Source: Desulfovibrio sp.
GTDB taxonomy: Bacteria; Desulfobacterota; Desulfovibrionia; Desulfovibrionales; Desulfovibrionaceae
Direction of reading: 5' to 3'
Length of the DNA stretch: 64,000 nucleotides
Assembly: GCA_016208105.1 (NCBI GenBank)
Contig: JACQYS010000027.1
Location: 62,001-126,000, forward strand
The notes beneath the pieces are model-generated. The model made no database searches. It was not told the origin of the DNA and saw only the letters and a list, made by a program, of their open reading frames with translations. Each line of letters begins with the position of its first letter. Position 1 is the stretch's first letter. Made by a program: the position numbers and the translations under genes. Below, in pieces: positions 1 through 38,341 of the stretch.

Positions 1-769
1 GAAGAAGCTTCACCTGTATGTCGGCGGAAAGCTCACCGATTTCGTCCAAAAAGAGCGTCCCACCATGCGCCATTTCAAACCGGCCGCGCCGTTTGGCCAC
101 GGCACCAGTGAATGATCCCTTTTCGTGCCCAAAGAGTTCGCTCTCCAGCACCCCGGAACTCAAGGCCATGCAGTTCACGGTGACGAAGGGCTGGTCCTTG
201 CGCGGGGAAGCGTAGTGTATGGCTTTGGCCACCATCTCCTTGCCCGTTCCAGATTCGCCCATGATGAGCACCGTGGAGCGCGACGGAGCGGACCGGTCCA
301 CCAGCTCCAGCACCTGCCCCATGGCCTTGGAACGCCCGATCAGCTGATGGACGGCGTAGCGTTCCTCAAGGCTCTGGCGCAGGTAGATGTTCTCGCGCTG
401 TGTACTGGCAAACTGGGCGGCTTTGGCCACCGTGAGCATGAGCTCATCGTTGGAAAATGGCTTGGTGATATAGTCGAATGCGCCCACCCGCATGGCCTCC
501 ACGGCCCCTTCGATGGAACCGAAGGCGGTCATGATGATGACAGGCACGTGGGAGTAGGCCTTTTTGACGTGTTCAAGCACTTCCTGGCCGGTCATCTTGG
601 GCATCTTCATGTCAGTGATGACCACGTCCACTTCGGATTCCTCCAGATAGGCCAAGCCCATCTCGGGATCGTCCAGCGCGGTTACTGCATAGCCGGCGTC
701 CGCCAGCAATGCTTCCAGAATGAGCAGATAATTGCGTTCGTCGTCTAATATGAGAACTTGTGTCGCCAT
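1..769 (-). CDS. sigma-54-dependent response regulator, NtrC family (partial)
   Basis: Cytoplasmic transcription activator that would drive sigma-54 promoters after phosphorylation by the adjacent kinase. About 256 residues are visible and the 3' end lies beyond the left edge. A receiver domain fills residues 1-120, with the acidic pair D9-D10, phosphoacceptor D53 (ITDMKMP) and the conserved lysine in YITKPF. An AAA+ domain follows, with Walker A GESGTGKE, the sigma-54 contact loop in the form GSFTGA (Ser in place of the commoner Ala) and Walker [10 protein letters not shown]. The DNA-binding domain would be outside the window. The start lies 12 bases after the stop of the histidine kinase, so the two form one operon and almost certainly a cognate pair. 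The target genes cannot be told from the sequence. Confidence 0.95.
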
Positions 770-31028: not shown

Positions 31029-31844
31029 TCAGCGCTCCACCCCCAGCCTCTTGAACCAATCCGGGCGCTTGCCAACGAATTCCATTGCTGCTTCAAAGGC
31101 CTCGTCCGTGTGTGGCTCGAACGTGACTGATGGTTTGAGTCCACGCTTTTCGAGGCCCACAAAAAAATCATCCCAGGGTATCTCCCCCTGCCCCAGCCCC
31201 ATGTGCTGGTCGAAACTGCCGTCATTGTCGTGCAGGTGCAGATGGCCAAGCAGCGGGGCGAAAGTATCAAGCCAGTGATCAAGGTTTTGCAGCCTGTGCC
31301 CGCCTGAAAAGCTGAACCAGTGCCCCATGTCCAAACACAGGCCAACACGTTGGCCGTGGGTCTCGCGGAGCTTTTCCACCACCCCAGCCACCGTGGCCGG
31401 GTCTGGTTCGAACGTGTTCTCCAGGTAGAGCGGGGGGTGTTCCGGCCAGGCTGCCAGCGTGGCTTTCCAGGTTTCCAGGGCCCGCTCCCTCCAGAGGGGA
31501 TAGGTGTTCATGTACAGCAAGTGGTCATAGCGGACATGCCCGATCATATGGGCCGGTTCATAAATTCTGGCCACTTCCATGGCCCGGCATAACCGCTCCT
31601 GGCAGGCGGCCCGAATCAGATTGTCCGCGCTCCCGGGCTGGAGATCGAAGAAGGGCAGGTGCAGCGACGCAGTGAGGTTTGCTTCCTTGAAACGCTGCGC
31701 CATACCCCGGTGCCAGTTCAGGTCAACCATGTCCATAAGCACAGGGTCCAAGCCAAGCTCCGGGTTTACCCCGCGCTTCAAGAACGTATCTAGAACCTCA
31801 GGTTTCTTGAATGCGGTGCGCAGATTCAAGTTTACGAAAAACAT
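31029..31844 (-). CDS. TIM-barrel sugar-phosphate isomerase/epimerase-like protein
   Basis: A 271-residue protein of the xylose isomerase-like/AP endonuclease 2 superfamily. Metal-binding pattern visible as ASLHLPF, MIGHVRYDHLL, LYLENTFEPDP, VGLCLDMGHW, LGHLHLHDNDGSFDQHMGLGQGEIPW and VTFEPHTDEAFEAA. The HLHDNDG..D.H..LGxGxIPW string is common in the sugar-isomerase-like group, so it is more likely a sugar or cyclitol enzyme than a DNA repair nuclease. ATG chosen with AGGAGCGGCC upstream. Divergent from the thioredoxin gene; substrate unknown. Confidence 0.85.
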   Translation of the reverse strand: MFFVNLNLRTAFKKPEVLDTFLKRGVNPELGLDPVLMDMVDLNWHRGMAQRFKEANLTASLHLPFFDLQPGSADNLIRAACQERLCRAMEVARIYEPAHMIGHVRYDHLLYMNTYPLWRERALETWKATLAAWPEHPPLYLENTFEPDPATVAGVVEKLRETHGQRVGLCLDMGHWFSFSGGHRLQNLDHWLDTFAPLLGHLHLHDNDGSFDQHMGLGQGEIPWDDFFVGLEKRGLKPSVTFEPHTDEAFEAAMEFVGKRPDWFKRLGVER

Positions 31845-31920
31845 GGCCGCTCCTGTCGACAAACGTTAAAAAAGAAATATTATGGGGTCTTGAACCATGA
31901 ATTCAACCATGGAGCACTTC

Positions 31921-32403: not shown

Positions 32404-32490
32404 ATGCTTGGCGGAAGATTGACCGGTTTCTCAGTCCTGGCATTTGTACCTGCCATGTCCGCCCACCCAGCCCCTCTCTGTAAACAATAA
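32404..32490 (+). CDS. possible 28-residue small protein
   Basis: A tiny open frame (MLGGRLTGFSVLAFVPAMSAH, then PAPLCKQ) preceded by AGGAGGAACTC at ideal spacing, which is the best ribosome site in this neighbourhood. The peptide is hydrophobic in its middle and might be a membrane micropeptide or a leader. It could equally be chance. It lies 48 bases after the thioredoxin stop. Confidence 0.3.
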   Translation: MLGGRLTGFSVLAFVPAMSAHPAPLCKQ

Positions 32491-32492
32491 AA

Positions 32493-32523
32493 ATCCCGGC
32501 GTGGCGTCATGCCAGGCCGGGAT
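32493..32523 (-). terminator. intrinsic terminator of the purB-to-M99 operon
   Basis: ATCCCGGC pairs with GCCGGGAT, with a second inner stem (TGGC/GCCA). On the minus strand it is followed by TTTTTATTG. It lies 36 bases past the M99 gene and closes the five-gene operon. Confidence 0.8.
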
Positions 32524-32558
32524 CAATCAGTTGCCTCACCTGACCAGATCTGCCCAGT

Positions 32559-34346
32559 TCACTGACCGAGGGAACCAGCAGCCTCCGTTGTCATGGACAG
32601 GGCCACCCGTCCGGACACGGGCATCTTGCCCATTTCTGAGAATGTGGTGGCTTGACGCAAAACGAGTTCATCCTTTTCGGTTACAGCGAAACTCTGCCCG
32701 GGGTTCACTGGTGTTTTCCCGGCGAAAAGCTGAACCATTCCCGCTGGACCATTTCCCCGCACATCCTTCAAAACATAGCGCCCCGCAGGCAGCAGGAGCT
32801 GTTTCCCCGGAGCCCAGGCCAGGGTCATCTCCTTGCCGTCTCCGGCTTCGACCACCAGCGACTGGACTTCCCGGGGCCTGACCCGGATGGAGAATTTAGC
32901 GGCAGGCTCCCTGTGCGTCTCGCGCACCACTTCGCAGAGGAAGTCGCCATTCTCAATAACTTTTATGAATTTTGGGATAAAGCTCTTGGGATCGAGAATG
33001 ATTTCCTGTCCGGCATCCTGGCCGTCGTTCTTGCCCACGCGGCTCACGTAGCCCTTGAGATTGAGAACCTCGTCCTTCTTGCTGCCCCAGACACCTTCGA
33101 GCACAAGCTGGTCGCCCTGCACGGCTTCAAGCGTTCCGCCAGACGGGATCACCTTCAATTCGCCACCGAGCCAGCAGACGAACTTTGGCGGCCCCGAGGC
33201 TTCCGCCGCTGGCCAGTTGCCCGTCCACTCCAGCGTGGCCTTGGCCAAAAGGACACCGTCGGCCCGAACGTCCAGGGTTTGGAAAGGCGACAACGGCAGG
33301 CGGGGTGCCTTGGCCAGATTAAAGCCCGGCCGGTCCGATGCGAATACCGCGGTAACCGGGTTCATGGCGGTCAGGCCGCTGGGAAACTCGCAGCGAACGT
33401 CCAGGGGCGTACCCGGAGCGAGCTTGATCTTCTGTCTGTCCGAAATAACTTCCCGACCGTTGACCACAACCTTGAGCTCTTTGGCCGGATAGGCCTTCAT
33501 GTCCTCTGGAGTCAGCCTCGGGACGTCGAGCTCCACGCCGAACTGACGCAGAAATAACGTGGTGGCTTTCAGCTGTTGCGCCACCTTCCAGGACAGGTCG
33601 GGAATATTCTTGCTCACCTCGATGGCCACGGCCGGGATGCCCACGTTGGCCAGGGCGTAATACGTGAGCGACTTGCGCTGTTCCAAATACTTCGAGCGGT
33701 CGTTGAAGGTGTCCATGTTGAAGAGTTGGAAGGCAAATTCCTTGGGGGCAATTCCATCGTTGAGCTTGGACAGAACCTGGCGGGCCAGGCGCTCCAGATG
33801 AACCAAGCGTTTGTAGTCGGTGGCGTCGATGATCACGGACTGCCCGTAGCGGTGGGGTCCGCGAAGATCGCTCTTGCGTACGGGATCATAGAATCCCGAT
33901 CCCTCGTGCAAATGAACCAGGGCCTGGCTCTGGGACACGAGGAAGCGGATGAGTCGCGCCAGCCTGTCCTCGTAAAATTCGTTGTAGTCTTTGTCGAAGC
34001 GTCGGTTCAGGTCCACGTTAATGGCCCGCTTGCGCTCGTGAATGGATGGGGGATTGGCCCTGGGTACGATGATCACCGTCCCCTTGGTCACCTTGGCCCT
34101 GGTGAGAAGCTGCGCGGTAATGAATCCACCGGATTCGTCGCCCTGGATGCCGCCCTGCACCATGACTGTGGGCCCGGGTTTTTCTCCTTTGAGAAAATGC
34201 ACGTCCAAAGCGTATTGGGTGCCGGGGAAAAAGGTGTGGACCTCGCCCAGAGCCGGCTGTGCGGCCAGAACGAGCAGCAGAAGGACCAGGCTACTGAGCC
34301 TGGGCAAGCGGATAGGTCTCGCTGAAGATGGTTTTTCCTGAAGCAT
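32559..34346 (-). CDS. M99-family carboxypeptidase, Csd4/Pgp1-like
   Basis: A ~595-residue exported zinc carboxypeptidase of the M14-like M99 family. A signal/membrane segment is at about residues 18-34. Zinc ligands appear as VQGGIQGDESGG (Gln and Glu; the Gln in place of the usual His is the hallmark of Helicobacter Csd4) and LVHLHEGSG (His), with NVDLNRRF typical of the fold and EVSKN later. The C-terminal ~300 residues are beta-rich repeats of unknown role. Csd4/Pgp1 trims the terminal D-alanine/mDAP bond of monomeric tripeptides in peptidoglycan. The start overlaps the upstream gene by 56 bases (an earlier ATG at 34391 is possible). A membrane coiled-coil protein and a Csd6-like protein precede it in the operon. 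Confidence 0.85.
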   Translation of the reverse strand: MLQEKPSSARPIRLPRLSSLVLLLLVLAAQPALGEVHTFFPGTQYALDVHFLKGEKPGPTVMVQGGIQGDESGGFITAQLLTRAKVTKGTVIIVPRANPPSIHERKRAINVDLNRRFDKDYNEFYEDRLARLIRFLVSQSQALVHLHEGSGFYDPVRKSDLRGPHRYGQSVIIDATDYKRLVHLERLARQVLSKLNDGIAPKEFAFQLFNMDTFNDRSKYLEQRKSLTYYALANVGIPAVAIEVSKNIPDLSWKVAQQLKATTLFLRQFGVELDVPRLTPEDMKAYPAKELKVVVNGREVISDRQKIKLAPGTPLDVRCEFPSGLTAMNPVTAVFASDRPGFNLAKAPRLPLSPFQTLDVRADGVLLAKATLEWTGNWPAAEASGPPKFVCWLGGELKVIPSGGTLEAVQGDQLVLEGVWGSKKDEVLNLKGYVSRVGKNDGQDAGQEIILDPKSFIPKFIKVIENGDFLCEVVRETHREPAAKFSIRVRPREVQSLVVEAGDGKEMTLAWAPGKQLLLPAGRYVLKDVRGNGPAGMVQLFAGKTPVNPGQSFAVTEKDELVLRQATTFSEMGKMPVSGRVALSMTTEAAGSLGQ

Positions 34347-35088
34347 TTGACAACACCAACCTGAAGCCGAAAACATTGCCGGGCTCGACACCCTGGGGAA
34401 GCGGGGCCTGGGACGATACCTGTTTGAAGCGCTGGATGGAAAAGCCCAAGTCTTCCTTGCCTGTCTGGACGGAGACTACGCTTCCATCACGGGTGACTAC
34501 CACCAGCTGCCCATTTCCGGAAAGGGCCTGCGGCATGAGATTGGAAAGATCAAAGCCATATTGCACGGACTTCGCATCCACTTTGGCCCGGAAGTTCTCC
34601 ACGCCAACTTGGCCCAGGTCAACCTTGCCCATAACATCGGCCAGATCGAAGCCAGCAGGCTTCTCCCGTTCAGGAGGAGGCCCATTTTTGATGGCATCCT
34701 TCGTTGCCGGTGCATCCTTTGAATCTTTGCCACCCTTCGTCCCTGCCTGAACCTGGGGCTTGGCTGCGGGGGTCTCTATGCCCAAACCTCCCATGAGCTG
34801 GGAAAGTTCAGTGGGATCGGAAGTCTGGAGAAGTTTTTCGATATTTTGGAGACGCTCGAGCTTCAGAAGCGTCTCGGAAAGCCGTTTCTCAACCTCACGC
34901 TTGTCGTTCTGCATCTCCTGGGAGCGGCGCCAGAACTCGTAGGCCGCAAACAAACCGCCAGCGGCACAAAGCACGACAAATACGAGAAAATACGTGACGG
35001 CGCGAATCCACCCCGGCCTCAAGCGCAAACGCTTGGCCGGCTGCTCATCCCTGAACCAGATGAGATTAAGCTTGCTCAGATCCGCCAT
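34291..35088 (-). CDS. single-pass coiled-coil envelope protein
   Basis: A 265-residue protein: a basic cytoplasmic head, one membrane segment (about 29-50, VTYFLVFVVLCAAGGLFAAYEFW), a coiled coil (about 55-90, RSQEMQNDKREVEKRLSETL), a charged Lys/Asp/Pro linker and a ~120-residue C-terminal periplasmic domain ending LSNASGKTIFSETYP. I do not recognise the C-terminal domain. It starts directly after the Csd6-like stop (no gap), and its end overlaps the M99 gene. The layout resembles a scaffold tethering wall enzymes in the envelope; Helicobacter Csd5 has a comparable plan, but that is analogy, not homology shown here. Confidence 0.8.
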   Translation of the reverse strand: MADLSKLNLIWFRDEQPAKRLRLRPGWIRAVTYFLVFVVLCAAGGLFAAYEFWRRSQEMQNDKREVEKRLSETLLKLERLQNIEKLLQTSDPTELSQLMGGLGIETPAAKPQVQAGTKGGKDSKDAPATKDAIKNGPPPEREKPAGFDLADVMGKVDLGQVGVENFRAKVDAKSVQYGFDLSNLMPQALSGNGQLVVVTRDGSVVSVQTGKEDLGFSIQRFKQVSSQAPLPQGVEPGNVFGFRLVLSNASGKTIFSETYPLAQAQ

Positions 35089-36384
35089 CTATATTTTGCT
35101 CCAATCTTCATCCAGAATGGTCCAGCCATCACCCGTCGGCCCGAAAACCATCCGCTTTCTTCCCTTGTCGGTGTTTCCGTCCTTGCTGGCGTATTCCTGA
35201 ATGAACTCGACCTTCACCCCGTCCTGAGCCAGGGAGAACTTCATGTCGCGAATGACCACTTTCTTGGGGGCTTTGTTGCCAGCCCAGAGCTGCTGCTTCT
35301 GTTCGCGTATGGAGGCCTTGCCCTTGCGGTCACCCTGAGTGGCGTTCTCGCCGTAAAACTGGATGTACTCGCTCAGTTTGCCCTTTTCCCAAGCTTGGCG
35401 CCAGGCTTCAACCGATTTGCTCACGTCGTCACGGACGCGTGACAGGTATTTGCCCTCCAGGCCAAGCGAGGTCTCGTCAAAATCCATTCCCACGATAACC
35501 AGCCGGCCCTGCTCGTTGCGCTGCCAGTACAAGCGCTTGATGCCCTCGCTGGTAAGGGTCGGGGAACGATAGAGCTGGCCGAAATAGGTGACCCAGTAGT
35601 CCGGACCTTGCACGGCCCGTACGTCCTCGATCAGCACATGAATCCAAGGCAGCTTGGCAAAGAGCTGGCGCTTGTGACCGCGATAGTTCTCAAAAGGCTC
35701 GCCGGAAGCGATGGCGAATTTGTTCGCGTCGTGGAAAGCGAAAAAATCTTCAGACTTGCGCGACCAGGCCTTGGCCCATTCCAGGGTGGCGGCGACAACT
35801 TCCTGGGCTTCCTTGGAGGCGGTTGGTGTGTCTTTGGCCCAATGAACCTCGTTGGCAATGACCACCGGGAGGATACGCTTGGTGAGCTGCGGGTCAAGCT
35901 CCTTGATGTCAGGATTATTGAGCGCCACGCAGCCACGGCTCTCATTGGGGGTGATGGGCCTGCCCCGGCCATGGATCCATATGCCGGAGCCCTTGCGCCC
36001 GTTTATGACATCAATGGGGTTGGGATAGTTGAGAGTAAAGGCCAGGTCGCCATAGAGGCCGAAATCGAGCCCACCCCCGATACGCTCCTTGATGAAGTAC
36101 ACTCCCTCGGGAGTCTTCAAGTCGCCCTCGCGCCATTTGGTGCCAGGTTCCTGGCCCGTGGTGCACGGCAGCTGCTTTATGGGCTGCAGAGGGCTTTTCT
36201 GCTCGAAAAACCAGAAGGTCTGGGAAGACTTGTCCACCGCCAGAAACCTCTGCGGGCCGTAGGGATCGGCCTTGAGATCGACGGTCCACCCCTCTCCGGC
36301 AGCGAATGCCGGGGCAAAGGACAAGCAAAGCAATGCGGCGACAACGAAACCGAGTGTGGATGATTTGGCGTTTGGCGCAGCCAC
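35089..36384 (-). CDS. L,D-transpeptidase-fold protein with NTF2-like tail, Csd6/Pgp2-like
   Basis: A 431-residue exported protein. Signal peptide at about residues 9-28 (VVAALLCLSFAPAFA). The YkuD catalytic domain carries the HGRGRP...ESRGCVALNN active site with the nucleophilic cysteine. The C-terminal ~230 residues contain two NTF2-like units, each starting with W-x-x-AW-x-x-K and ending with a segment like VIVGMDF or WTILDEDW. In Helicobacter Csd6 and Campylobacter Pgp2 this fold acts as an L,D-carboxypeptidase that trims tetrapeptides to tripeptides and controls helical shape. The start is a GTG with AAGGAGGAG eight bases upstream. It lies 42 bases after pyrE, and the next gene begins right after its stop. 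Confidence 0.85.
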   Translation of the reverse strand: MAAPNAKSSTLGFVVAALLCLSFAPAFAAGEGWTVDLKADPYGPQRFLAVDKSSQTFWFFEQKSPLQPIKQLPCTTGQEPGTKWREGDLKTPEGVYFIKERIGGGLDFGLYGDLAFTLNYPNPIDVINGRKGSGIWIHGRGRPITPNESRGCVALNNPDIKELDPQLTKRILPVVIANEVHWAKDTPTASKEAQEVVAATLEWAKAWSRKSEDFFAFHDANKFAIASGEPFENYRGHKRQLFAKLPWIHVLIEDVRAVQGPDYWVTYFGQLYRSPTLTSEGIKRLYWQRNEQGRLVIVGMDFDETSLGLEGKYLSRVRDDVSKSVEAWRQAWEKGKLSEYIQFYGENATQGDRKGKASIREQKQQLWAGNKAPKKVVIRDMKFSLAQDGVKVEFIQEYASKDGNTDKGRKRMVFGPTGDGWTILDEDWSKI

Positions 36385-36425: not shown

Positions 36426-36977
36426 TCAAATCCCTTTGGCCGCTACGAGGTCGGCCCGGGTAAATATGGACTGCAGTTCGTACCCGGCAGCGGCCAGATT
36501 CTCCCGGCCGCCTTCCTGGCGGTCCAGCACGGCCAGCACGGCGACGATTTCGAGCCCCGCAGCGCGCACACGCTCGCACGCCTTGAGCAGAGTACCGCCG
36601 GTAGTGACGACATCCTCAAGCATGGCCACCTTGTCGCCTTGCTTGAAGTTGCCCAATCCTTCCAGGTACTGGTTGGTTCCATGGCCCTTGGCCTGCTTGC
36701 GGACAATGAAACCCGGCAGAGGGCGTTTGCCGATAAAGGACATGACCGTAACGGCGCTCACCAGGGGGTCGGCCCCCAAAGTCATGCCGCCTACGCCCTG
36801 CACGTCTATGCCCGAGAGCATCTCGCAGAACATGCTGCCGATGAGGAAGGAACCTTCGGGATGCAGTGCCGTGGGTTTGCAGTCGAAGTAGTAGTCGCTC
36901 TTGCGACCTGAAGTGAGGACGAAATCGCCCTCACGGTAGGATTTGTCGAGAATGATTTTGGCGAGCCGCTGTTTCAC
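36426..36977 (-). CDS. pyrE: orotate phosphoribosyltransferase
   Basis: Converts orotate and PRPP to OMP in pyrimidine synthesis. The 183-residue protein has the PRPP loop MLEDVVTTGGTLL and the N-terminal SGRKSDYYFD motif, at normal length. It overlaps purB by four bases (ATGA), so the two nucleotide genes are coupled. The Csd6-like gene follows 42 bases downstream. Confidence 0.95.
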   Translation of the reverse strand: MKQRLAKIILDKSYREGDFVLTSGRKSDYYFDCKPTALHPEGSFLIGSMFCEMLSGIDVQGVGGMTLGADPLVSAVTVMSFIGKRPLPGFIVRKQAKGHGTNQYLEGLGNFKQGDKVAMLEDVVTTGGTLLKACERVRAAGLEIVAVLAVLDRQEGGRENLAAAGYELQSIFTRADLVAAKGI

Positions 36978-38269
36978 GCCCCGAACACCCTTTTGTAGAT
37001 GGCCGCCTCCTGATTGAGGAAATTGGCCGGATTGAACAGTTCGTCCAGCTTGCTTTCGCCTAATGTGCTGGCGATGGCCGTATCATGGCGGACCTCATCC
37101 GGGAAGAGCTTTTTTTCCGTCCAGCAGCGCATGGCCACGGCCTGCACGCTCTCGTAGGCCGCCTGGCGGTCCATTCCAGCGTCGATGAGGGCCAGCAGGA
37201 TCGCCTGCGAGAAGAACAGTCCGTAGGACCCCCAGAGGTTGCGCTCCATGTTCTCGGGAATGATGCGCAGCCCGGAGAGCAGGTTGGCCAGGCGGTGGAG
37301 CATGTAGTCGGCCAGGATCGTGGAGTCCGGCATAATGACGCGCTCAACCGAAGAATGGGAGATGTCGCGCTCGTGCCACAGGGCCATGTTTTCCATGGAT
37401 GCCAGCGCATTGGTGCGCAAAAGCCTGGAAAGCCCGGCCAGGTTTTCGGCGGAAATGGGGTTCTTCTTGTGGGGCATGGCCGAAGAGCCTTTCTGGCCCT
37501 TTCCGAAGCCCTCTTCCACTTCGAGCACCTCGGTGCGCTGGAGATGGCGCAGCTCAACGCAGATGCGCTCCACACCGCCGCCCAAAAGGCCCAGCGCAGT
37601 GAAGAATTCGGCATGCCGGTCCCGCTGCACGATCTGGGTGGACACCGGATCAGGGATAAGCCCCAAGATGGCGCAGGCCCTCTCCTCCAATTCAGGGGAA
37701 AGATAGACGTAGGTGCCAACCGCGCCGGAAATCTTGCCCACGGCCACGGACTCCACGGCTCTGGCCACGCGCTCCCTATGGCGGCAAAATTCCGCGTAGA
37801 ACACCGTCATCTTGAGCCCGAAACTGGTGGGCTCCGCATGGATGCCGTGGGTGCGGCCCATGCACAAACGGCCCCTGTGGGCAAGAGCCATTTCCTTGAG
37901 CACCCCTATCAACCTGTCGATGCCTTCGAGTATTTTAAGGCCTGCGCGCTTGAGCAAAAGACCGTTGGCCGTGTCCACGATGTCCGAACTGGTGCACCCC
38001 AGGTGGATGAAGCGCGCCGAAGGGCCCACGATCTCTTCCACATTGGTGAGAAACGCGATGACGTCGTGCCGGGTGCGCTCCTCGATCTCGAGGATGCGGT
38101 CCACGTCGATGTCCGCCTTGGTGCGGATGGTCTCCATGTCAGTGGCAGGAATCCTACCCATGGCATGCCATGCCTCGCAAACAGCGAGCTCGACTTCCAG
38201 CCAAGCCCTGAACCTGTTTTCAAGGCTCCAGAGCCGGCCCATTTCCGGGCGGGTGTAGCGTTCGATCAT
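36974..38269 (-). CDS. purB: adenylosuccinate lyase
   Basis: Acts twice in purine synthesis (SAICAR to AICAR, adenylosuccinate to AMP). The 431-residue protein has the signature GSSAMPHKKNPI, the HLGCTSSDIVDT and RTHGIHAEPTSFG regions with active-site His, at the standard bacterial length. It is the first gene of an operon that continues through pyrE and three wall-related genes, with a terminator from fmdB just upstream. Confidence 0.96.
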   Translation of the reverse strand: MIERYTRPEMGRLWSLENRFRAWLEVELAVCEAWHAMGRIPATDMETIRTKADIDVDRILEIEERTRHDVIAFLTNVEEIVGPSARFIHLGCTSSDIVDTANGLLLKRAGLKILEGIDRLIGVLKEMALAHRGRLCMGRTHGIHAEPTSFGLKMTVFYAEFCRHRERVARAVESVAVGKISGAVGTYVYLSPELEERACAILGLIPDPVSTQIVQRDRHAEFFTALGLLGGGVERICVELRHLQRTEVLEVEEGFGKGQKGSSAMPHKKNPISAENLAGLSRLLRTNALASMENMALWHERDISHSSVERVIMPDSTILADYMLHRLANLLSGLRIIPENMERNLWGSYGLFFSQAILLALIDAGMDRQAAYESVQAVAMRCWTEKKLFPDEVRHDTAIASTLGESKLDELFNPANFLNQEAAIYKRVFGA

Positions 38270-38317: not shown

Positions 38318-38341
38318 GCAAGGCAGCCGAAGCTGCCTTGC
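38318..38341 (-). terminator. intrinsic terminator of fmdB
   Basis: GCAAGGCAG and CTGCCTTGC pair around a six-base loop, 11 bases after the fmdB stop. Read on the minus strand the stem is followed by TTGTTTTTGG. It separates fmdB from purB. Confidence 0.8.

Follow-up and report, generated by a model that had tools for sequence, protein, structure and literature searches.

Csd6 and Csd4 are described as shape determinants, and the same has been reported for Bd1075, Pgp2 and Pgp1 (PMC8938487, PMC3961634, PMC3310789). In Campylobacter jejuni, Pgp2 is reported to produce the tripeptide that Pgp1 uses (PMC3961634), and Pgp1 was described in 2012 as occurring mainly in helical and vibrioid bacteria (PMC3310789). 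A connection with bactofilins is reported for Csd5, which binds the bactofilin CcmA (PMC9507126), and for LmdC, a bitopic M23 peptidase whose cytoplasmic N-terminus binds bactofilin and whose conserved beta-hairpin is required for its recruitment by bactofilin; in Rhodospirillum, the LmdC-bactofilin pair is placed at the inner cell curve (PMC10945521). How trimming enzymes come to act on only one side of a curved cell remains to be explained, and the account of Bd1075 states that no mechanistic basis is known for targeting one lateral side-wall (PMC8938487). The present analysis concerns a three-gene locus that may bear on this problem, made up of genes for a YkuD enzyme, a coiled-coil protein (CC) and an M99 carboxypeptidase. 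It lies in a 64,000-nucleotide stretch of a Desulfovibrio sp. genome (assembly GCA_016208105.1, contig JACQYS010000027.1, positions 62,001 to 126,000 of the forward strand), hereafter the window, and many sulfate reducers of this group are curved.

The three genes follow one another on one strand without interruption in the window's list of open reading frames (ORFs), in the order that a first-pass annotation of this DNA had described:

35089..36384, minus strand: YkuD protein, ORF with GTG start; candidate L,D-carboxypeptidase of the Csd6/Pgp2/Bd1075 type
34291..35088, minus strand: CC, the middle coiled-coil protein (265 aa), ORF; predicted bitopic linker
32559..34391, minus strand: M99, ORF; candidate D,L-carboxypeptidase of the Csd4/Pgp1 type

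We propose, with modest confidence, that these genes encode a bactofilin-linked peptidoglycan-trimming module that bends the cell. The YkuD enzyme would convert tetrapeptides to tripeptides and the M99 enzyme tripeptides to dipeptides, activities suggested by analogy with Pgp2, Pgp1 and Bd1075; since Pgp2 makes the substrate of Pgp1 in C. jejuni, the operon would encode both trimming steps. CC would span the inner membrane, and its cytoplasmic hairpin would dock, by analogy with LmdC, on the bactofilin whose gene directly follows rodA in the mre/mrd operon. On the periplasmic side, the helix and the Ig-like domain of CC would anchor or place one enzyme or both, a contact that the gene order suggests, and trimming thereby limited to a single flank of the growing side wall would bend the cell. 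A linker gene that stands between two trimmers and tracks an elongation-operon bactofilin would form a concrete bridge between the cytoskeleton and wall editing.

Support comes from the joint occurrence of CC and bactofilin (PF04519), a link that the first-pass annotation did not raise, among 150 genomes of the order, of which 90 belong to the window's family. Within the family both genes agree in all 90 genomes (81 with both, nine with neither) when the sub-threshold row of genome G063 is dropped; if counted, G063 is one discordance, and its rodA locus lacks a bactofilin. The number of family genomes discordant with CC is zero for bactofilin, three for the NTF2 domain of the YkuD protein and five for M99. 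Order-wide, with G065 counted as CC, 104 genomes have both CC and bactofilin, one has CC only, 12 have bactofilin only and 33 have neither. Bactofilin matches occur in 119 of the 150 genomes; 116 were used as positive (117 pass the cut-off by the program's count), the weak matches in G063, G030 and G092 (E 8.9e-5, 1.1e-5 and 1.6e-7) not being counted. In the window's genome the bactofilin, assigned by Pfam, stands after mreC-mreD-mrdA(PBP2)-rodA, genes named by eye. It follows rodA in all seven further CC-positive family genomes examined, whereas in each of the nine CC-negative ones the 1.5 kb read next to rodA holds no bactofilin. Eight order genomes of families f3 and f6 with bactofilin and without CC have a bactofilin of another type, adjacent to an M23 gene (in one of this set, G073, its position was taken from the PF04519 search).

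Three family genomes break the association of CC with the enzymes. G084 and G105 have lost both CC and bactofilin but retain flagellar FliP and a YkuD gene next to pyrE; G129, conversely, retains CC and bactofilin and has lost YkuD, M99 and FliP. A purB tree was built for 30 genomes (all nine CC-negative genomes and 21 of the 81 CC-positive ones); on it the shared CC/bactofilin state requires seven changes (bootstrap 6-8), with at least four of them on starred branches. The Fisher p-values for co-occurrence of CC, NTF2 and M99 in the order are only descriptive, the genomes being phylogenetically non-independent.

CC forms an order-wide family with profile matches in 105 of the 150 genomes, or 104 after removal of G065 (an M23 peptidase), and a search with the single sequence was positive for 29 of 39 relatives. 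No Pfam or NCBIfam family matches CC at E<=1, and the sequence search of the PDB gave one marginal match only (E 0.9). An AlphaFold2 model (mean pLDDT 82.5, pTM 0.46; model residue 1 is Ala2) predicts four parts:

35020..35073, minus strand: predicted beta-hairpin before the transmembrane (TM) segment (KLNLIWFRDEQPAKRLRL), model strands 5-10 and 18-22
34822..35016, minus strand: predicted single TM segment running into the coiled-coil helix, model helix 24-88
model residues about 104-147, minus strand: predicted disordered linker (AlphaFold2 model)
34297..34617, minus strand: predicted Ig-like beta-sandwich, model residues 157-263

The one TM/coiled-coil helix of the model supports the first-pass description of CC as a membrane scaffold-like single-pass coiled-coil protein. 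We infer that the hairpin is cytoplasmic and the Ig-like domain periplasmic. The best PDB matches of the sandwich are Ig-like domains of GH2 proteins (Z 11.1, rmsd 2.1, 95 aligned), and in the fold search only common Ig-like folds stand out for this C-terminal domain, the hairpin and long helix being barely covered; a family missing from these matches is not thereby excluded. The modelled Ig-like fold is thus of a common kind that carries no functional information. The N-terminal part shows a marked pattern of conservation, with the consensus KYNxIxMRDDxxVxRxR over 26 sequences, in which D14 is invariant and R13, R20 and R22 are nearly so.

M23 proteins of the order have an N-terminus similar-looking to that of CC, the M23 domain being assigned by Pfam in two ORFs (121-122 bits). 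When the N-termini of 30 CC and 10 M23 sequences were compared over 24 ungapped columns, the score was reached by eight of 5000 column shuffles. A kinship of the CC hairpin with the bactofilin-binding hairpin of LmdC is therewith suggestive only. CC was also considered as an LmdC protein and rejected, since no Pfam family is found in it at E<=1 and it therefore has no M23 domain.

The C-terminal domain type of CC was also seen outside the locus. In family f5 it occurs on two other proteins that carry an N-terminal HTH_25 domain (L058:7274-8239 on G026:C5 and L059:1557-2588 on G035:C84), this domain being assigned by Pfam in the L058 protein; HTH_25 plus a CC-type domain is an architecture that we take to be RodZ-like, and it gives a second hint of a cell-shape role. 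Elsewhere, one of the two CC match pieces of G137 (G137:C1:1367091-1367612) holds a TAA codon, which may reflect gene decay or simply where the match was taken to end.

The YkuD protein scores above cut-off for both Pfam families YkuD (62.4 bits) and Cds6_C (NTF2; 88.4 bits), and its top sequence matches in the PDB are 7o21 (Bd1075, 1.5e-32), 4xzz (Csd6) and 6xj6 (Pgp2). Its N-terminus is signal-peptide-like by eye, and the domains are arranged as follows:

35857..36249, minus strand: YkuD catalytic domain, residues 46-176, with Cys152 within SRGCVALNN
35494..35796, minus strand: NTF2-like repeat 1, PF24125, 44.6 bits (G000:C27:97494-97796)
35107..35424, minus strand: NTF2-like repeat 2, PF24125, 50.4 bits (G000:C27:97107-97424)

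The catalytic pair H138/C152 is kept in all 30 aligned YkuD rows with letters, and the second position after the Cys is Ala in 25 of 30 aligned rows (C152-V-A154 in the window, Ala and not Arg). The Pfam scores, PDB matches and conserved active site bear out the first-pass reading of a Csd6/Pgp2-like YkuD fold. Its 'NTF2-like tail' stands as far as the NTF2 assignment goes; the tail is not single, two PF24125 repeats lying inside the one window ORF. Because it has two NTF2 domains and not a single one, the protein is a variant of the Csd6/Pgp2/Bd1075 group. Most order genomes with PF24125 matches have at least two of them, family f5 has them in two genes, and G027, G120 and G150 have one match each. 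For counting, 110 order genomes were taken as NTF2-positive (112 pass the cut-off by the program's count), leaving aside ten g28 genomes with E between 1e-3 and 1e-5. On this basis, and with G065 counted as CC, 101 order genomes have CC and NTF2, four CC only, nine NTF2 only and 36 neither, and M99 is nested within NTF2, as 89 of the 90 M99 genomes are also NTF2-positive.

Across the 90 genomes of the family, YkuD-NTF2 and flagellar FliP are either both present (82) or both absent (eight). This holds only if the four low-scoring FliP matches in G063, G111, G135 and G153 (217-220 bits) are taken for relatives from type III secretion systems, which was done by the score gap alone. Such a match agrees with a cell-shape trait that would help in swimming. 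Genus g28 has FliP, but no g28 genome is among the matches for M99, CC or bactofilin, and straight rods would be predicted there by the proposed module.

Some departures from the usual YkuD arrangement were also noted. In two f5 genomes that were read, YkuD-NTF2 genes form a tandem pair that is not at the purB locus (L196:5125-7857, L197:6396-9425), and three f5 purB loci lack YkuD-NTF2 beside CC. The reduced genome G120 (1.46 Mb chromosome; L195:5103-6940) keeps a single-NTF2 YkuD, CC and bactofilin and has no M99.

The M99 protein matches PF17033 with 94.1 bits against a gathering cut-off of 27, and Csd4 structures 4q6m/4wck in a PDB sequence search with E of about 1e-20. It carries the motifs QGDE (residues 83-86) and HLHEG (residues 160-164), and Q83, E86, H162 and E258 are kept in all 18 aligned rows and align with Csd4 in the PDB sequence search. 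The probable start, judged by eye, is the ATG at 34346, just ahead of a signal-peptide-like stretch, and not the GTG at 34391. With the model of M99 (mean pLDDT 79.1), the five best PDB rows are all Csd4 (Z 26.3-27.5, rmsd 14.9-15.5, 353-363 residues; next row Z 19.4), the best one covering model residues 59-503 with Z 27.5, rmsd 15.2 and 356 aligned; the rmsd is high, and therefore the placement of domains differs between the model and Csd4. About 100 C-terminal amino acids extend past the Csd4 match. The Gln ligand of zinc in Csd4 was reportedly described by Chan and colleagues in 2015, and the remaining zinc-site and catalytic positions are those we take to be equivalent. The title of a Gln46His PDB entry for Csd4 likewise supports a Gln zinc ligand. 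The PF17033 match, the Csd4 fold and the residues conserved in 18 of 18 rows agree with the first-pass identification of a Csd4/Pgp1-like M99 enzyme with a Gln-Glu-His zinc site.

Two types of M99 exist among the 150 order genomes, 42 canonical and Csd4-like (256-300 bits) and 48 divergent (74-131 bits, with open frames mostly of 550-750 aa). They never occur together in one genome of this sample; other genomes of the phylum, G363 and G444, carry both. The divergent type is usually, not always, found in the operon (the G011 copy is on a different contig, and besides its operon copy G075 has one more at another place). The canonical type was considered as the operon enzyme and rejected, as none of the seven order loci read has YkuD or CC within about 7 kb of it. 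As an observation on the side, the mutual exclusion looks like an operon copy displaced by an unlinked one.

The gene order recurs well beyond the window. Among 28 order loci selected by CC (the weak or secondary matches L053, L058 and L059 excluded), 13 have YkuD-CC-M99, 12 have YkuD-CC without adjacent M99 and three have CC alone. A survey of named genomes with purB as query gave at least about 21 Desulfovibrionales among the matches listed, mostly metagenome-assembled genomes (MAGs) and with no recognisable straight-rod control. Here, YkuD-CC-M99 lies beside purB-pyrE in at least five named loci (L065 of Desulfocurvus, L066, L067 of Humidesulfovibrio, L069 and L077), and YkuD-CC without M99 was found, among the matches listed, in Pseudodesulfovibrio pelocollis, Desulfovibrio sp. 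A2 and several Desulfovibrio MAGs from hosts; some of the contigs end soon after CC. The Desulfonatronum locus L078 has CC without adjacent YkuD, and on four short contigs (L064, L068, L070, L079) the place beside purB is only partly readable. Outside the order, L083, L085, L089 and L118 carry purB-(pyrE)-YkuD-CC-M99.

In the phylum, M99 occurs in 57 of 297 genomes, 47 of them outside the window's family, and one M99 locus was read in 40 of these 47. YkuD-CC-M99 is present in 26 of the 40 loci (25 by profile, plus L172 with a CC-like gene in the gap), YkuD-M99 without CC in seven, and the other seven have no YkuD nearby; purB lies within the stretch read in 11. The arrangement of the trio is not due to chance, because its order recurs across order and phylum. 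The trio, which the first-pass annotation took as a possible curvature machine of vibrioid sulfate reducers, is not restricted to them: many families of the phylum carry YkuD-CC-M99, so the trio is an old feature of the phylum and no speciality of Desulfovibrionales, and adjacency of pgp1 and pgp2 within 300 bp was reported in 2014 for Nitratiruptor, Nautilia, a Desulfococcus and Persephonella (PMC3961634).

Upstream of the trio lie two nucleotide biosynthesis genes, and terminator-like sites stand at both ends:

36974..38269, minus strand: purB, ORF; adenylosuccinate lyase, named from reading of the translation; probable first gene of the operon
36426..36977, minus strand: pyrE, ORF; orotate phosphoribosyltransferase, named from reading of the translation
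32492..32524, minus strand: intrinsic terminator hairpin with U tract after M99 (64-nt stretch 32482-32545: -28.7 kcal/mol, z -3.9)
38318..38341, minus strand: terminator-like hairpin in the fmdB/purB gap, from the pattern scan

The purB and pyrE genes overlap by 4 nt, pyrE and YkuD are 41 nt apart, YkuD and CC are separated by 0 nt, and CC and M99 overlap. Because of this tight spacing and the terminator-like sites at both ends, purB to M99 is likely a single transcript, as the first-pass annotation had it. The pattern scan of the window found 10 terminator sites against 8.2 expected in shuffles, and it missed the hairpin after M99, whose stem holds a mismatch. The purB product is 66% identical to another family's homologue and 63-75% identical among 12 aligned order members, and pyrE homologues occupy the same position in order loci.

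Several neighbouring genes deserve mention in their own right. In the window, a thioredoxin-like gene lies between M99 and a sugar-isomerase-like gene (by eye, 31029-31862), and the latter often stands directly after M99 in other order members, e.g. L183, L041, L045 and L050. Between pyrE and ykuD or CC, families f2 and f5 have a conserved gene for a putative lipoprotein with an LLWPD or similar motif; two scanned proteins gave no Pfam model over cut-off. Two members of family f26 (L145 and L157) lack YkuD and have, in this order, purB, a gene resembling amidophosphoribosyltransferase (purF by eye), pyrE and M99. The putative lipoprotein genes, all with the LLWPD or similar motif, are:

L043:7271-7873, L046:6331-6939, L045:9271-9843 and L049:6429-7019: putative lipoprotein gene
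within the frames L047 6757-7617 and L078 11700-12455: putative lipoprotein gene

A number of observations weigh against the proposed module. A sign test on the four starred independent pairs gives p 0.125, so that the CC/bactofilin match is a strong pattern with modest formal evidence. An mre-type bactofilin without CC is found in G064, G068, G085, G094 and G100 (66-96% complete, 200-390 contigs), G091 (77% complete) has CC without bactofilin, and in the long named loci L073 and L081 both YkuD and CC are missing next to purB. With regard to the hairpin, an HMM of this part alone retrieves no M23 peptidase above background among 8730 ORFs. Two non-M23 ORFs, PilN/PilO-like by eye, match the TM/coiled-coil part of CC (E 7e-10 and 4e-4), one of them better than any M23 protein does; because these ORFs match through the TM/coiled coil, E-values of the whole N-terminus were not used as evidence. 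No M99 match was found in the named Pseudodesulfovibrio pelocollis genome and in the Desulfonatronum and Desulfonatronovibrio MAGs, whose completeness is not stated. All three genera are described as curved. M99 would then be dispensable or replaceable and, if we have these shapes right, cannot be essential for curvature, because genomes of curved genera lack it. Finally, seven of the nine CC-less family genomes also lack flagellar FliP. A change of lifestyle can remove several envelope genes together and is the main confounder of the bactofilin result; co-loss with motility or in host-bound life could explain much of the match. The two explanations are separated by three genomes only, as it is G084, G105 and G129 that break the pattern of CC with the enzymes.

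This co-loss is at the heart of an alternative in which CC partners the enzymes only, as anchor or activator, and the bactofilin match arises indirectly through joint loss in non-motile or host-bound lineages. Besides the missing FliP, it draws on the place of CC between the enzyme genes (13 of the 28 CC-selected order loci and 26 of the 40 M99-selected phylum loci) and on the agreement of CC and NTF2 in 87 of 90 family genomes. However, G084 and G105 have lost CC and bactofilin with YkuD and FliP kept, G129 keeps CC and bactofilin without YkuD, M99 or FliP, and the conserved CC segment before the TM would be needless for a purely periplasmic anchor, so we consider this alternative unlikely. 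The trio could also serve general peptidoglycan maintenance, i.e. turnover or the limiting of cross-links, with no role in curvature and with the purB/pyrE neighbourhood as inherited synteny. The wide phylum distribution of the trio and the loss or replacement of M99 in many genomes would suit such a function, as would the reported occurrence of Pgp2 homologues in non-curved bacteria (PMC3961634). We nevertheless judge it improbable, as the closest characterised relatives (Bd1075, Pgp2, Pgp1, Csd6 and Csd4) are described as determining shape and the family keeps YkuD exactly where FliP is kept and CC where bactofilin is kept.

Equally doubtful is a role of CC mainly as an elongasome or bactofilin factor, for instance in the control of wall synthesis, with no more than the operon in common with the enzymes, although this overlaps with the proposed module. 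In G129 CC persists although the enzymes are gone, in three f5 loci and in Desulfonatronum L078 no YkuD is adjacent to it, and its putative bactofilin partner is encoded in mre/mrd; against this, CC keeps its position between the two enzyme genes in 26 of 40 loci of the phylum, and this points to a common task. The confidences given to these readings overlap and are not meant to sum to one. Returning to the bactofilin-linked trimming module, we tentatively extend it to a wider claim: CC may represent a new family of bactofilin-docking TM adaptors, with an LmdC-like hairpin and no peptidase of their own, that couple an elongasome-encoded bactofilin to the two-step L,D/D,L-carboxypeptidase line, and the operon may be a single curvature operon of ancient origin that serves a large part of this phylum of sulfate reducers.

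No paper on a YkuD-CC-M99 operon or on CC was found, as judged by titles, in a literature search without most subscription papers, and CC and its proposed bactofilin partnership appear undescribed in the literature searched. What is known are the enzymes and the cytoskeletal theme; what is new is the linker family CC and the arrangement. With Csd6, Pgp2 and Bd1075 the window YkuD protein shares the YkuD fold, the His/Cys catalytic pair, a Cds6_C NTF2 domain and a signal-peptide-like N-terminus, but it has two NTF2 repeats where they have one. At the second position after the catalytic Cys it has Ala like Csd6 and Pgp2, whereas Bd1075 is reported to have Val; bd1075 is moreover described as monocistronic (PMC8938487), unlike the window gene, which stands in an operon with a predicted bitopic linker and M99. 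The window M99 keeps the Gln-Glu-His zinc site and the catalytic Glu of Csd4/Pgp1 and its model matches Csd4, but it belongs to a divergent branch with the additional C-terminal stretch.

In its predicted build of beta-hairpin, TM segment and coiled coil, and in its putative bactofilin partner, CC resembles LmdC. In contrast to LmdC, it has no M23 domain and would act via separate L,D- and D,L-carboxypeptidases, and its putative partner bactofilin is encoded in the mre/mrd operon, whereas in the eight f3/f6 relatives bactofilin is paired with M23 and CC is missing. With Csd5 of Helicobacter pylori, CC would have in common a short N-terminus, one predicted TM segment, a C-terminal domain and a link to bactofilin. 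It differs in that this domain is Ig-like in the model and not SH3, in being encoded among the trimming enzymes, and in the absence of any sequence relation found; with no Pfam match at E<=1 and a modelled Ig-like domain, CC is not classed as Csd5. If the proposal is true, the locus would be a curvature operon parallel to the CcmA-Csd5 system of Helicobacter, but differently built.

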